This document shows positions 2,254 through 63,591 of a stretch of DNA of 64,000 nt, piece after piece. Positions within the stretch are counted from its first letter, which is position 1; each line of letters begins with the position of its first letter. Source of the DNA: a virus. Where the stretch lies: positions 1 through 64,000 of the IMG/VR virus record IMGVR_UViG_3300033992_001111; one strand, written 5' to 3'. Under the pieces are notes generated by a model that saw only the letters and a list, made by a program, of their open reading frames with translations, searched no databases and was not told the DNA's origin. The position numbers were made by a program, and so were the translations under genes.

Positions 2254-4092
2254 ATGGCAAATCGTAATATATCTTATACTACCAGAGATTATCAAGGAAT
2301 AAGAACTGAATTATTAAACTATGTAAGGACTTATTACCCTGAATTAATACAGGACTTTAATGATGCTTCTGTATTCTCGGTATTCTTAGATTTGAATGCT
2401 GCGGTAGCGGACAATTTACATTATCATATTGATAGAAGTATTCAGGAAACTGTTTTACAGTATGCTCAACAAAGGTCTTCAATTTATAATATTGCTAGAA
2501 CCTATGGGTTAAAATTACCGGGACAAAGACCATCAGTGTCTTTAGTTGATTTTTCAATAACCGTTCCTGCGTTTGGGGACAAAGAAGATGAAAGATACTT
2601 AGGAACATTAACAAGAGGGTCTCAAGTTGTCGGAGCCGGAATAGTCTTTGAAAACATCTATGATGTAGATTTTACTTCACCATATAATGCTCAAGGATTC
2701 CCAAATCGTTTAAAAATACCAAATTTTAATGCAAATAATGTCTTAATTAATTATACGATTACAAAAAGAGAATTAGTTGTTAATGGTATAACAAAAGTGT
2801 TTAAAAGAGTCATCACACCAAATGATGTTAAACCATTCTTCGAATTATTCTTACCTGAGAAAAATGTATTAGGGATTACTAATGTATTATTAAAAAGTGG
2901 TACTGAATATACAAATGTCCCATCAACTGCTGAATTTTTGGGGGTATCAAATAAATGGTATGAAGTCGATGCACTTGCGGAAGACCGAGTATTCATTGAA
3001 GACCCAACAAAAGTGTCAGACCAACCGGGTATTAAGGTTGGAAAATATATTCAGACATCTAATAGATTTATAACGGAATACACTCCGGAAGGTTTTAAAA
3101 AGATGACATTTGGTGGTGGTACAAATACAGCACAAGATTCTTTAGACCAATTTACCACGGTTGGTGCAACAATTGATTTACAAAGATATTCAAATAACTT
3201 TTCATTGGGTTCTGCTTTAACTCCAAACTCGACCTTGTTCATTCAATATAGAGTGGGTGGTGGTTTGGCGACAAACTTGGGAACAAATGTTATTAATCAA
3301 ATTGGTACAGTAAATTTCTTTGTTAATGGACCATCTGAATTAACTAACTCATCTGTTGTGAATTCATTAAGATGTACCAATGTTACTGCAGCCATTGGAG
3401 GTGCTGGTGTACCATCATTAGAAGAAATTAGGAATTATGTATCGTTTAACTTTTCGGCTCAAAAAAGAGCGGTTACAGTACAGGATTACGAGTCAATTAT
3501 TCGAAATATGCCGGCAGAATTTGGGGCGCCTGCAAAAGTTTCAATTACTGAAAATAACAATAAGATATTGATTCAGTTATTATCCTACGATACTTCAGGA
3601 AAACTAACAAGTATTGTTTCAGATACATTAAGACAAAATGTTGCTAATTATTTGTCGAATTATAGAATGATAAACGATTATATTTCAATTTTAACTGCTC
3701 AGGTTATTGATTTAAGTATTAATGTTCAAATTGTTTTAGATTCTGCTCAAAATTCCGGTCAAGTTATTGCGGATGTCGTTGATAGAATTTCAACATATTT
3801 CAATCCTCAAACACGGGAATTAGGTCAAAATGTTTATTTATCTGAATTGAAAAGTATTATCCAAAATCAAAATGGTGTATTAACAGTAGTTGGGGTAAAT
3901 GTATTTAATAATGTTGGGGGTCAATATTCTTCCGCGGAAACATCCATGGAATATGTTGACGCTGAGACAAAAGAAATTTCAACTGTTGATGATACTATTT
4001 TTGCTCAACCATCACAAGTGTACCAAGTTAGATACCCTAATAAAGATATTAAAGTGTCCGTTAAAAATTTCCAATCAGTTACATTCTCTTAA
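2254..4092 (+). CDS. Baseplate wedge protein, gp6/baseplate J-like
   Basis: A 612-residue protein resembling T4 gp6 (660 residues), which forms the ring joining baseplate wedges. The N-terminus (residues 5-100) has the typical Y-T-T-R-D-Y-x-x-I-R-T-E-L, Y-Y-P-E-L, D-F-N-D-A-S and a long helical stretch ending near K-L-P-G. A second conserved block around residues 385-425 (E-E-I-R-N-Y-V, Q-K-R-A-V-T-V-Q-D-Y) is the hallmark of baseplate J proteins. The position right after the gp25-like gene supports the call. The first 250 residues of the family tend to be helical and the C-terminus mixed; nothing looks truncated. Confidence 0.87.
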   Translation: MANRNISYTTRDYQGIRTELLNYVRTYYPELIQDFNDASVFSVFLDLNAAVADNLHYHIDRSIQETVLQYAQQRSSIYNIARTYGLKLPGQRPSVSLVDFSITVPAFGDKEDERYLGTLTRGSQVVGAGIVFENIYDVDFTSPYNAQGFPNRLKIPNFNANNVLINYTITKRELVVNGITKVFKRVITPNDVKPFFELFLPEKNVLGITNVLLKSGTEYTNVPSTAEFLGVSNKWYEVDALAEDRVFIEDPTKVSDQPGIKVGKYIQTSNRFITEYTPEGFKKMTFGGGTNTAQDSLDQFTTVGATIDLQRYSNNFSLGSALTPNSTLFIQYRVGGGLATNLGTNVINQIGTVNFFVNGPSELTNSSVVNSLRCTNVTAAIGGAGVPSLEEIRNYVSFNFSAQKRAVTVQDYESIIRNMPAEFGAPAKVSITENNNKILIQLLSYDTSGKLTSIVSDTLRQNVANYLSNYRMINDYISILTAQVIDLSINVQIVLDSAQNSGQVIADVVDRISTYFNPQTRELGQNVYLSELKSIIQNQNGVLTVVGVNVFNNVGGQYSSAETSMEYVDAETKEISTVDDTIFAQPSQVYQVRYPNKDIKVSVKNFQSVTFS

Positions 4093-4164: not shown

Positions 4165-4172
4165 TATTTATA
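4165..4172 (+). promoter_or_regulatory. TATTTATA box, 15 nt before the start codon
   Basis: TATTTATA in the 95-nt gap before the 1581-residue gene. The 15-nt spacing to ATG is the same as at 30555 and 58003. Confidence 0.55.
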
Positions 4173-38051: not shown

Positions 38052-38852
38052 ATGGATACAAAAAAATGTAATAAATGCGCCTTTGAAAAAAATGTTGAAT
38101 ATTTTTTTAAGAATAGTCGTATGGAAGATGGGTATAATAATATTTGTAAAGAATGTAGAAAAAATGTTAGTAAAAAATATTATGACAAAAATATTGAAAA
38201 AATAAAAAAATATCGAGAAAGTAAAAAAGATGTTACTAAGTTATATTTTAAAGATTATTATGTTAATAATTTAGAGGGTAGGAAAGAATATATAGAAAAA
38301 AATAAGGAAATTCTTTTAATAAAAAGGAAAGAGTATTATACTAAAAATAGGGAAATTCTTATTGAGAAGTCAAGACAAAGAAATACGAATAATAAAGAAA
38401 AAAGGGGTGAATATAATAAAAATTATAGAAAAAATAATATTGAAAAAGAAACAAAAAGATGGAAAGAATATTACGATAAAAATAAAAAAGATTTAATTAA
38501 TAAGTCGGTTACAAATTCGTTAAATAAACGAAAAAAATGTCCAATCGAAAGATTAAAACATAATCTTAGAAATAGGTTACTTTTTTATGTTAAATTAAAA
38601 GATGTAAGAAAAAATAATAAAAGTTTTAACATTATAGGTTGTTCTCCTGAATTTTTGAAAGAACATTTAGAACAAAAATTTAATGAAGGAATGTCATGGG
38701 ATAATTACGGATATTATGGATGGCATATTGACCACAAAATACCATTATCAAGTGCCAAAACTGAGGAAGAACTTTACAATCTCTGTCATTTTACTAACTT
38801 ACAACCAATGTGGGCTATCGACAATATAAAAAAAGGTAGTAAAATTATTTAA
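38052..38852 (+). CDS. HNH homing endonuclease with N-terminal zinc ribbon
   Basis: A 266-residue paralogue of the HNH protein at 12563. The zinc ribbon is C-N-K-C ... C-K-E-C (residues about 5-36). A Lys/Asn-rich linker with Y-x-K-N-x-E/K repeats spans about 45-165. The nuclease core is H-I-D-H-K-I-P-L-S near residue 223, ending N-L-Q-P-M-W-A-I-D-N-I-K-K-G. The segment from I-I-G-C-S-P-E-F-L-K-E-H-L-E to the end is close to the 12563 copy. It lies between the tail protein (6 nt before) and the RuvC-like gene (1 nt after), so it may drive homing of this junction. Confidence 0.9.
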   Translation: MDTKKCNKCAFEKNVEYFFKNSRMEDGYNNICKECRKNVSKKYYDKNIEKIKKYRESKKDVTKLYFKDYYVNNLEGRKEYIEKNKEILLIKRKEYYTKNREILIEKSRQRNTNNKEKRGEYNKNYRKNNIEKETKRWKEYYDKNKKDLINKSVTNSLNKRKKCPIERLKHNLRNRLLFYVKLKDVRKNNKSFNIIGCSPEFLKEHLEQKFNEGMSWDNYGYYGWHIDHKIPLSSAKTEEELYNLCHFTNLQPMWAIDNIKKGSKII

Positions 38853-40041: not shown

Positions 40042-40100
40042 TTAGGGTAAATTAAATTAATTTTATTATAAAAAAAATGATACTTTAACAAAAAGTAATA

Positions 40101-40108
40101 TATTTATT
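40101..40108 (+). promoter_or_regulatory. TATTTATT box before the RHH-HNH cassette
   Basis: It lies 3 nt before ATG 40112, the same tight spacing as at the other RHH-endonuclease cassette (62655). Confidence 0.45.
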
Positions 40109-40111
40109 GAA

Positions 40112-40270
40112 ATGGGACGTAAACAAATAAAGTTAGAAGAAAAGAAAATTAGGATGTCTATCACTATAGACCCTAATATTGAAAAAATTGTTAGAGATAA
40201 ATCTATTAATTTGTCGTCATTGGTTAATAAATTATTAATAAAGTATTTTAGTAATGAGAAAAATATGTAG
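40112..40270 (+). CDS. Small ribbon-helix-helix-like DNA-binding protein
   Basis: A 52-residue basic protein. A beta strand R-M-S-I-T-I-D is followed by two short helices (P-N-I-E-K-I-V-R-D-K, then N-L-S-S-L-V-N-K-L-L-I-K-Y-F), the layout of Arc/MetJ-type ribbon-helix-helix repressors. Its last 17 nt overlap the start of the HNH gene, so the two are probably translationally coupled. An equivalent gene precedes the LAGLIDADG endonuclease at 62812 with an identical 17-nt overlap. It may repress the cassette or assist target binding; both are inference. Confidence 0.72.
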   Translation: MGRKQIKLEEKKIRMSITIDPNIEKIVRDKSINLSSLVNKLLIKYFSNEKNM

Positions 40271-40943
40271 TAAATGTTTAATTGAAAAAGATGTTTGTGA
40301 ATTTCATTATCATATTAGGGAGAAAGATGGACGATATTATCAATGCAAAGAATGTCGTAAAATTATTAGTAAGAAGGAATATCATACAAATAGGAAAAAT
40401 AAAAAGATTGTTATAAATAGTAAAACTTGTTCTATTTGTTTAATTGAAAAAGGTGTTGGTGAATTTCATAAACATATTAGTAGTAAAGATGGTTATAGGT
40501 CTGTCTGTAAAAAATGTCGTAGTGATAAATTTAAATATAATTATAATAATTTTTCAGGGTTTTCTGAGACACATAAAAAAAGAGTTAAAAACTATTCGAA
40601 AAATAATCATGAAAAACTTAACGAATACTACAAAAAAAGATATATTAGGTACCCTCACATATATGCTTGGAGAAGTATGTTAGGTTCGGTTATTAGACGA
40701 CTTGGCAGTAAAAAAGAGTCATCTACCTACGATATTTTAGGATATTCAGCGGTAGAATTAAAAAATCATCTGGAAAATTTATTTACTGAAGGAATGTCTT
40801 GGGATAATTGGGGTAAGTGGCATATTGACCATATAATCCCTGTTAGTAAGTTTGAAAAAGGTTCTGACCCTAAAATTGTGAATTCGTTAAATAATTTACA
40901 ACCTTTATGGGCTACAGATAATATACGTAAAGGTAATGATTAA
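40254..40943 (+). CDS. HNH homing endonuclease with two zinc ribbons
   Basis: A 229-residue member of the same HNH family as 12563 and 38052, but with two N-terminal zinc-ribbon units: C-S-K-C-L-I-E-K...C-K-E-C (about 4-35) and C-S-I-C-L-I-E-K...C-K-K-C (about 60-93). The linker is shorter and less repetitive. The nuclease core reads G-K-W-H-I-D-H-I-I-P-V-S and ends N-L-Q-P-L-W-A-T-D-N-I-R-K-G. It starts inside the RHH gene (17-nt overlap). The duplicated C-x-x-C-L-I-E-K unit points to internal domain duplication. Confidence 0.9.
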   Translation: MRKICSKCLIEKDVCEFHYHIREKDGRYYQCKECRKIISKKEYHTNRKNKKIVINSKTCSICLIEKGVGEFHKHISSKDGYRSVCKKCRSDKFKYNYNNFSGFSETHKKRVKNYSKNNHEKLNEYYKKRYIRYPHIYAWRSMLGSVIRRLGSKKESSTYDILGYSAVELKNHLENLFTEGMSWDNWGKWHIDHIIPVSKFEKGSDPKIVNSLNNLQPLWATDNIRKGND

Positions 40944-62619: not shown

Positions 62620-62654
62620 TTTACTTTTTAACGCACTTTTACTATACTTTGTGA

Positions 62655-62662
62655 TATTTATA
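62655..62662 (+). promoter_or_regulatory. TATTTATA box before the RHH-LAGLIDADG cassette
   Basis: 4 nt before ATG 62667, the tight-spacing class also found before the RHH-HNH cassette at 40112. Confidence 0.5.
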
Positions 62663-62666
62663 ATAT

Positions 62667-62828
62667 ATGGGAAAGATAGGACGACCTAATAAAGAAGACA
62701 AAGATAAAAAAGTTAAATATGGGATAAGTATTGACCGATATCTTTTCGATAAAATGAAAAACGAGGGGGGTAGTATCTCCAAGTTTATTCAAAAATTAGT
62801 TAAAGAGTATTATGAGAAAATTGACTGA
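62667..62828 (+). CDS. Small ribbon-helix-helix-like DNA-binding protein
   Basis: A 53-residue basic protein: G-R-P-N-K-E-D-K-D-K-K lead, strand V-K-Y-G-I-S-I-D, then helices (Y-L-F-D-K-M-K-N-E, and S-I-S-K-F-I-Q-K-L-V-K-E-Y-Y). This is the ribbon-helix-helix layout. It overlaps the LAGLIDADG gene by 17 nt, exactly as the RHH gene at 40112 overlaps its HNH gene; both overlaps start ATGAGAAAA. Putative repressor or partner of the endonuclease. Confidence 0.7.
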   Translation: MGKIGRPNKEDKDKKVKYGISIDRYLFDKMKNEGGSISKFIQKLVKEYYEKID

Positions 62829-63591
62829 AATTGATTGTAGTCGTATTTGTGATGATTATTTGTTAGGTTTGTCCTATAATTTATTATCAGAAAAATATAA
62901 TATTTGTACTTGGAGTATTGGTAATGTTTTAAGAAAAAATAATATTAAAAGTCGAATCCGTAAACATAGTTGTAATGAAAATTATTTTGAAAAAATAAAT
63001 AGTAATGAGAAGGCGTATTGGTTAGGTTTGTTATTTGCGGACGGGTGTGTTAGAAAACGAAAACAATTTAATGGGAAACACAAACAAGGTGGAATTGTTG
63101 GGATATCATTAAAAAATGGGGATGAATATTTGTTAGAGAAATTAATTATTGACTTGGAGTCAACATATAAACTCACTAAACAAATTAAAGATGAATTTTT
63201 AAGTTATAAGTTAGAAGTTAATAGCTCAAAAATGACCGATGATTTGATTAATTTAGGTTGTGTCCCAAATAAAAGTTTAGTATTATTACCCCCTAATTTA
63301 ACTGATGATTTTATCCCTCATTTTATTAGAGGTTATTTTGACGGTGACGGGTCTATTGGTAGATACAATGGAAGACTTAAATTTAGTTTATTGGGGACAA
63401 ATGATTTGTTAAGTTGGATTTTAAATTTTTTTAAAAATAAAGGAATGAAAACAACCCCCAAAATTAGTAAAAATAAAAATATCCATTCAATTCAAGTAAA
63501 TTCAAAATCGGATATTGAACTAATTCAAAATATTTTATATACTTCATCTAATGATTATTACCTAAAAAGAAAAAAAGAAAAATTTAAATAA
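62812..63591 (+). CDS. LAGLIDADG homing endonuclease
   Basis: A 259-residue free-standing homing endonuclease. Two LAGLIDADG helices are visible: W-L-G-L-L-F-A-D-G-C near 70-79 and I-R-G-Y-F-D-G-D-G-S near 172-181, each with the catalytic acidic residue. An N-terminal region of about 50 residues (D-Y-L-L-G-L-S-Y-N-L-L-S-E-K-Y-N-I) resembles a helix-turn-helix DNA-binding unit. It starts inside the RHH gene and ends 1 nt before an adenine methylase gene. Confidence 0.88.
   Translation: MRKLTEIDCSRICDDYLLGLSYNLLSEKYNICTWSIGNVLRKNNIKSRIRKHSCNENYFEKINSNEKAYWLGLLFADGCVRKRKQFNGKHKQGGIVGISLKNGDEYLLEKLIIDLESTYKLTKQIKDEFLSYKLEVNSSKMTDDLINLGCVPNKSLVLLPPNLTDDFIPHFIRGYFDGDGSIGRYNGRLKFSLLGTNDLLSWILNFFKNKGMKTTPKISKNKNIHSIQVNSKSDIELIQNILYTSSNDYYLKRKKEKFK

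Follow-up and report, generated by a model that had tools for sequence, protein, structure and literature searches.

Among described systems, the nearest known mechanism appears, by analogy, to be the autorepression of I-TevI of phage T4, the best-studied phage homing endonuclease. According to the available text of PMC2988022, this endonuclease itself represses transcription at a late promoter, with an operator that resembles its homing site, and RNA structure restrains it as well. As at the locus studied here, where repression is putative, a repressor at a late promoter keeps the amount of a phage homing endonuclease low; the difference is that I-TevI is both endonuclease and repressor, whereas here a separate small protein would serve unrelated nucleases. 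The free-standing seg and mob endonucleases are likewise intergenic nuclease genes in T4-like phages, and in the same available text seven free-standing T4 endonucleases appear to be promoter-less, whereas the cassettes described here bring along a promoter-like box, a putative operator, and a ribbon-helix-helix (RHH) gene. The pairing of an antitoxin-like gene with a homing endonuclease is partly in print already. One paragraph in the accessible part of the ‘moraphages’ paper (PMC12619734, Arch Virol 2025) describes antitoxin-like genes beside PacI-like putative homing endonucleases and offers two possible explanations, namely regulation or an advantage in fitness that the antitoxin would provide. 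Moraphages are likewise large aquatic phages whose hosts are predicted to be mostly Bacteroidota; the accessible part mentions no LAGLIDADG or NUMOD3/TnsA-like partners, shared module, operator, frame-locked overlap, nuclease swapping, or empty sites. No paper was found on LAGLIDADG together with ribbon-helix-helix, the available portions of PMC7468147, PMC8987985, and PMC10853773 contain no RHH-homing-nuclease module, and no report of a constant module, operator, or nuclease swapping was found in a literature whose coverage was thin for subscription papers and preprints.

The window, i.e., the whole 64,000-nucleotide stretch analysed here, is part of a 98,585-base virus record and carries two cassettes, both on the plus strand. 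In cassette 1, a putative RHH operator, TGATACTTTAAC (40078..40089; ACTTT at 40082, 19 nt before the box), precedes a TATTTAT promoter-like box, probably of late type and common to other genes of these phages (40101..40107), a 52-aa RHH gene of subtype KKIRMSIT (RHH1; 40112..40270), and a gene for a free-standing HNH (endonuclease VII-like) nuclease of 229 aa (40254..40943), which precedes primase. In cassette 2, the putative operator ACGCACTTT (62631..62639) and the TATTTAT promoter-like box (62655..62661) are followed by a 53-aa RHH gene of subtype KKVKYGIS (RHH2; 62667..62828) and a gene for a free-standing LAGLIDADG nuclease of 259 aa (62812..63591), between a dnaJ-like region and an adenine-methylase-like (dam) gene. 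The first-pass annotation had reported these two pairs with a shared 17-nt overlap, which we confirmed (40254..40270 and 62812..62828, respectively); both overlaps begin with the nuclease start ATGAGAAAA. The TATTTAT box that it placed 3–4 nt before the RHH start codon is present in both cassettes, at distances of 4 and 5 nt. Its assignment of the nucleases to different families agreed with the Pfam and PHROG matches: the LAGLIDADG protein matched LAGLIDADG_3 above the Pfam cut-off, and the HNH protein fell below it (19.6 vs 21.4 bits) and matched a PHROG endonuclease VII at 6e-28. A homing-type nuclease motif is present in the cassette nucleases by Pfam and PHROG, for the window HNH via this strong PHROG match. 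A third HNH-type gene in the window (38052-38852), 6 nt after the preceding large gene, has no RHH and no TATTTAT box immediately upstream.

The two small proteins are likely ribbon-helix-helix proteins. AlphaFold monomers, a check that had been suggested earlier, yielded the two helices (21-30/34-51 and 24-32/37-52 in RHH1 and RHH2, respectively), after an extended basic KKxKxxxS stretch, and no strand; an RHH strand is expected in the dimer only. Fold searches with these models gave nothing significant, three of the four RHH2 matches (E 3.6–5.4) being CdbA, which we take to be an RHH protein. Pfam CcdA matched 17 of 33 RHH family members (best E 8.8e-6), BrnA antitoxin 8 of 33, and RHH_9 1 of 33, all at E<=0.1; the RHH1 protein itself lay under the Pfam cut-off (19.5 vs 22.4 bits), and RHH2 had no match in Pfam. 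A sequence search of the PDB found no relative, the named phages gave no match to the RHH of locus L138 and only weak matches for RHH1 and the RHH of L015, and none of 286 pattern matches in prokaryote genomes was confirmed as a relative.

Searches of IMG/VR with both RHHs retrieved 270 relatives of RHH1, the best 80 of which were kept, and 61 distinct RHH2 loci. A complete overlapping downstream ORF was present in 127 of these 141 loci, comprising 70 members of one HNH-type family, 52 LAGLIDADG, 3 NUMOD3/TnsA-like, and 2 methylase ORFs, counts that are not independent because many loci are closely related; most loci were found via the RHH. The Pfam labels of the nuclease families were taken from 20 representative partners (E<=0.01: HNH 8, LAGLIDADG_3 7, NUMOD3 1, TnsA-like 1, methylase/intein 1). 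Across the collected loci, 240 RHH ORFs (109 distinct) were surveyed for overlap; RHH ORFs upstream of homing nucleases, which the first-pass annotation had proposed to look for in other phages, were found, with 103 of the 109 distinct ORFs overlapping a downstream ORF. The pairing thus recurs across IMG/VR loci and is not a chance feature of one genome. Starting instead from the nuclease, 28 of the best 80 of 573 HNH relatives had an RHH and 52 did not; thus, the RHH is not obligatory for the HNH. The RHH matches in L282 and L285 were rejected as false, as they fall within the HNH frame itself.

The relative frame of the overlap was the same in all 103 distinct RHH ORFs, and its length was 8, 11, 14, 17, 20, 23, or 29 nt. 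The identical 17 nt in the two window cassettes is therefore a coincidence; the frame, not the length, is constant. This frame-locking (103/103) would suit an RHH frame that acts as a translated leader, bringing ribosomes to the nuclease start with a product that matters little, yet the RHH is under purifying selection (median dN/dS about 0.07–0.085) and co-varies with an upstream element described below, which leaves that explanation scarcely plausible. Selection on the RHH also appears tighter than that on the nuclease, according to a rough estimate (median dN/dS 0.08 vs 0.19, from 11 and 40 usable pairs, respectively, with dS near 1).

The RHH module is found with unrelated nucleases. One RHH (46/46 aa) heads LAGLIDADG nucleases of two groups (L119/L121 and L127/L128) and an HNH nuclease (L129), and another RHH sequence heads a NUMOD3/TnsA-like protein (L015/L016) and an HNH protein (L021/L022). 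The DNAs of such swapped pairs are almost identical over a stretch that begins ~50 nt ahead of the RHH and ends at the nuclease ATG; on either side of it, identity is at background level. Together with the lower dN/dS of the RHH, this strongly supports the earlier suggestion that the RHH module is the constant part. The module can also be exactly absent, since in four loci an HNH gene lies a few nt after a uvsX-like gene, at ATGGAAACTAAAG, without box or RHH; two of the four, L331 and L337, are alike in the compared stretch.

The same exchange bears on what the RHH does for its partner. The first-pass annotation had offered, as one option, a DNA-targeting partner, here taken as a subunit directing the nuclease to its target. 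RHHs bind DNA and the two genes are tightly coupled, which speaks for such a subunit, but the unrelated partners of one RHH (HNH and two LAGLIDADG groups) and of another (NUMOD3/TnsA-like and HNH) make this role highly improbable; moreover, nuclease relatives without RHH exist, and the NUMOD3 nuclease already contains a DNA-binding motif. An antitoxin that neutralises the nuclease by binding, as in a CcdA-like toxin-antitoxin pair, draws on the weak CcdA/BrnA Pfam matches, the overlap of the two genes in this order, and the accessible part of PMC12619734, which labels such genes antitoxin-like. CcdA/BrnA-type antitoxins do share the RHH domain and the small overlapping two-gene unit with our cassettes, but the RHH here ends a few residues past the second helix, too early to include a toxin-binding tail (with one exception, the 130-aa RHH of L377). 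Its last residues vary between cassettes with different nucleases, one RHH is paired with unrelated nucleases, and the partners are nuclease families rather than CcdB or BrnT, with no toxin model among the 20 representatives. Lacking a tail and having unrelated partners, the RHH is thus very unlikely to be an antitoxin.

Loss of the nuclease was also observed. Intact RHHs stand ahead of deleted or broken nucleases in L097/L136, L098, L103, L105, and L075, all from RHH-based searches. A preferential retention of the RHH as the nuclease decays was considered and rejected, as five nuclease remnants at the dam site, from a survey not started from the RHH, keep no RHH match. The methylase of L023 and L024 was likewise rejected as a further cargo: the C5-methylase is the usual downstream gene, the nuclease has been lost, and the methylase contains an intein. 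In L023 (322-2457) and L011-L014, an intein-bearing C5-methylase lies directly behind the RHH module after nuclease loss, the intein being detected by Pfam in L023.

Regarding insertion sites, 55 RHH2 cassettes precede a dam-like gene (51 LAGLIDADG and 4 HNH), and RHH1 cassettes lie mostly after a uvsX-like gene and before a 5'-3' exonuclease-like or C5-methylase gene, or before primase; neighbour gene names were read from the sequences without family search, except for the Pfam-labelled C5-methylase. Nuclease tags in the dam-site and neighbourhood surveys came from simple patterns that mislabelled a few RHH1 HNHs, and families were taken from the 141-locus classification. As mostly the same few sites hold varying cassettes, the swapping is largely seen among alleles of those sites. 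Insertion is clean and intergenic, with empty alleles in relatives from which RHH and nuclease are jointly absent. Of the 34 loci retrieved through similarity to primase, five (L165-L168 and L170) lack the cassette but contain its flanking genes, and four, all the window's virus or near-identical to it, carry the RHH1+HNH cassette. In L177, a TATTTAT box is followed directly by an HNH, with no RHH, and L169 retains an operator-like remnant only: a solo ATGATACTTTTACAAAAAGTAATC, which is an imperfect inverted repeat accompanied by neither RHH nor nuclease, before primase (about 2790-2890). Among 37 loci collected by dam similarity, 12 had RHH and nuclease, 5 had nuclease remnants only, and 20 had neither by the queries used; one of the five remnants, L214, still has ACGCACTTT.

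The TATTTAT box shows no enrichment in the window (43 matches vs 58.6 expected from shuffles), and its significance rests on position rather than frequency. TATTTA lay 3–10 nt before the RHH ATG in 101 of 108 distinct cassettes with enough upstream sequence; in the remaining seven the box was nearer or farther, one of them being an orphan RHH without a clear box. The box was also found 3–25 nt before 75 distinct non-cassette starts, commonly 14–19 nt from the ATG and sometimes at only 4–7 nt, so the short gap is not unique to cassettes. In the window, it lies 16 nt before the starts of large genes at 4165, 30555, 58003, and elsewhere. Because it precedes so many other genes, TATTTAT was rejected as an RHH-specific operator and is best described as a general promoter-like box, likely a late-type promoter class of this phage group. 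The box of T4 late promoters is TATAAATA; the TATTTAT box, predicted here from sequence, is alike in style and differs in its letters. Leaderless RHH messages were rejected as a rule, since the box-to-ATG gap is 15 nt in 7 of 17 cassettes of a third RHH subfamily. T4 late promoters have an 8-bp TATA box roughly one turn of the helix upstream of the transcription start, and the available part of PMC2988020 reports no conservation at -35; the conserved element that we found at a -35-like position is therefore unusual.

This element, about 20 nt upstream of TATTTAT and consisting of ACGCACTTT or an ACTTT variant, is the cassette-specific signal and the likely operator. Each of the 61 RHH2 loci has a single ACGCACTTT in the 80 nt ahead of its RHH, and there is no further copy on either strand of these loci (337,838 b). 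Combined with the box, it marked four distinct sites in 22 larger records, each just before an RHH2 gene, and a reversed-pattern control marked none. It was invariant over 31 dereplicated RHH2 cassettes, a set drawn from 59 of the 61 loci and entered by having the element, as all 61 do; identity in the same cassettes was 46% at RHH fourfold sites, 61% in the spacer, and 59% upstream. More generally, 71 of 75 dereplicated cassettes (RHH1 39/43, the exceptions being L010, L011, L015, and L020; RHH2 32/32) have ACTTT 9–21 nt upstream of the box, as against 5 of 75 non-cassette TATTTAT sites scanned at 5–24 nt (Fisher p 4.6e-31, sequences not independent). The distances cluster at 19–21 and 9–11 nt, with RHH1 variants usually at 19–20 nt and some short RHH2 distances due to a second upstream box. 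The third RHH subfamily (33 loci, 17 distinct cassettes) was scanned after the element rule had been formed, its query and a few members having been seen earlier. ACTTT stood at 19–20 nt in 15 of the 17 and was absent in two, a second ACTTT at 11 nt was present in 11 of the 15, and all 17 had an overlapping HNH ORF in the same frame. The ACTTT-box spacing is kept while the box-to-ATG gap varies (5–6 nt in 10 cassettes, 15 nt in the other 7), so the promoter, not the start codon, is what the element is tied to.

The element also tracks the RHH subtype. Identity in the 4 nt before ACTTT was 0.79 within and 0.33 between RHH groups (0.50/0.41 and 0.56/0.49 in control blocks), the groups being defined by a rough pattern that splits some subtypes; some co-variation is expected simply because the element adjoins the RHH and is co-inherited with it. 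Four RHH2+HNH cassettes (L096, L102, L104, and L129) carry ACGCACTTT, so the element goes with the RHH and not with the nuclease, which argues against self-repression by the nuclease of the I-TevI type. Such co-variation is only indirect evidence for the putative sequence-specific binding of DNA by an RHH dimer.

A protein bound at this position could also be an activator or timing switch that recruits polymerase and turns RHH and nuclease on together. Most small RHH proteins that stand alone in operons of this kind are autorepressors, and 70 of the 75 non-cassette TATTTAT sites have no element and seven of eight RHH-less boxed HNHs have no ACTTT; the promoter thus seems usable without it. The -35-like place of the element, 19–21 or 9–11 nt from the box, speaks for activation, as does the available account of T4 late promoters, where an extra element could aid recruitment given the lack of a conserved -35 (PMC2988020). 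On balance, we regard activation as unlikely. ACTTT can occur without a linked RHH, as in the eighth boxed HNH and at TTACACTTTT followed by the box, which was found at three sites in two records, none beside a detected RHH. Two of these sites are the dam promoter in L212 and L216, where TTACACTTTT, with ACTTT 15 nt before TATTTAT, lies just before dam (about 2960-3000) without an RHH; it may be what is left of a cassette, or a promoter under control in trans.

Taken together, these observations probably describe a mobile homing-type nuclease cassette, in which a constant 5' module with an RHH autorepressor and its operator is joined to a variable, translationally coupled nuclease. The module spans ~195 nt and would comprise the operator-like element (ACGCACTTT or another NNNNACTTT variant), TATTTAT, the RHH gene, and the embedded nuclease start, whose codon sits inside the 3' end of the RHH frame. 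We infer that the phage transcription machinery uses the TATTTAT box and that ribosomes finishing the RHH restart at the overlapping nuclease ATG, which would tie nuclease output to RHH output. An RHH dimer would then bind its own element beside the promoter and shut the operon down, so that, with coupling, nuclease expression would be brief and low-level. Such a dose might be enough to cut cassette-free alleles in co-infection, leading to homing, and would limit harm to the carrier. The self-regulating cassette envisaged by the first-pass annotation thus remains the best-supported mechanism, given an element that is conserved and tracks the RHH subtype; repression itself is a presumed step, and its likely operator lies upstream of TATTTAT rather than at the box. 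In this group of large uncultured aquatic phages, the short promoter and RHH module resembles a built-in brake to which different cutters can be attached. It heads at least three unrelated kinds of nuclease, beside recombination, replication, and DNA-modification genes, and opens two general questions to testing: by what means a selfish nuclease brings along the control of its dosage, and in what way nucleases without common ancestry are exchanged behind a shared control unit. The combination of a ~50-aa RHH, an ACTTT element, and a TATTTAT box also provides an annotation rule for finding such nucleases.

Several cassettes can occur in one genome, which would be possible if each RHH subtype had its own element. 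An RHH profile search of 24 records gave a match in 15, and the three records with the window's cassettes (100% RHH identity) had five strong RHHs each. A 309-kb relative (G003) carries five cassettes with five pairs of RHH strand and element: KYGIS with ACGCACTTTT (LAGLIDADG, dam), IRMSIT with TGATACTTT (HNH, primase), and VKIGVS with TTCTACTTTT, TKVSVA with TCACACTTTT, and IKFAIS with GTATAACTTTT (all HNH). In the larger records, TCACACTTTT followed by the box was found at three sites, all before TKVSVA-type RHHs. Differing elements within one genome would fit insulated autoregulation and yield candidate orthogonal repressor-operator pairs. A more speculative extension, to which we assign a small chance, is an immunity system in which RHH subtype and operator define a group, a resident RHH silences incoming cassettes of the same group, different groups coexist, and the nucleases are exchangeable payloads. 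If so, homing elements would compete via repressor specificity as well as target-site choice.

Two LAGLIDADG nucleases (L099:1947-2789 and L141:3146-3988) have an N-terminal CxxC stretch resembling that of the HNH family and are apparent chimeras, with the stretch fused in front, behind the same RHH. In L377 (around 1501), the RHH is lengthened by a second stretch, and the overlapping HNH gene is still present downstream.
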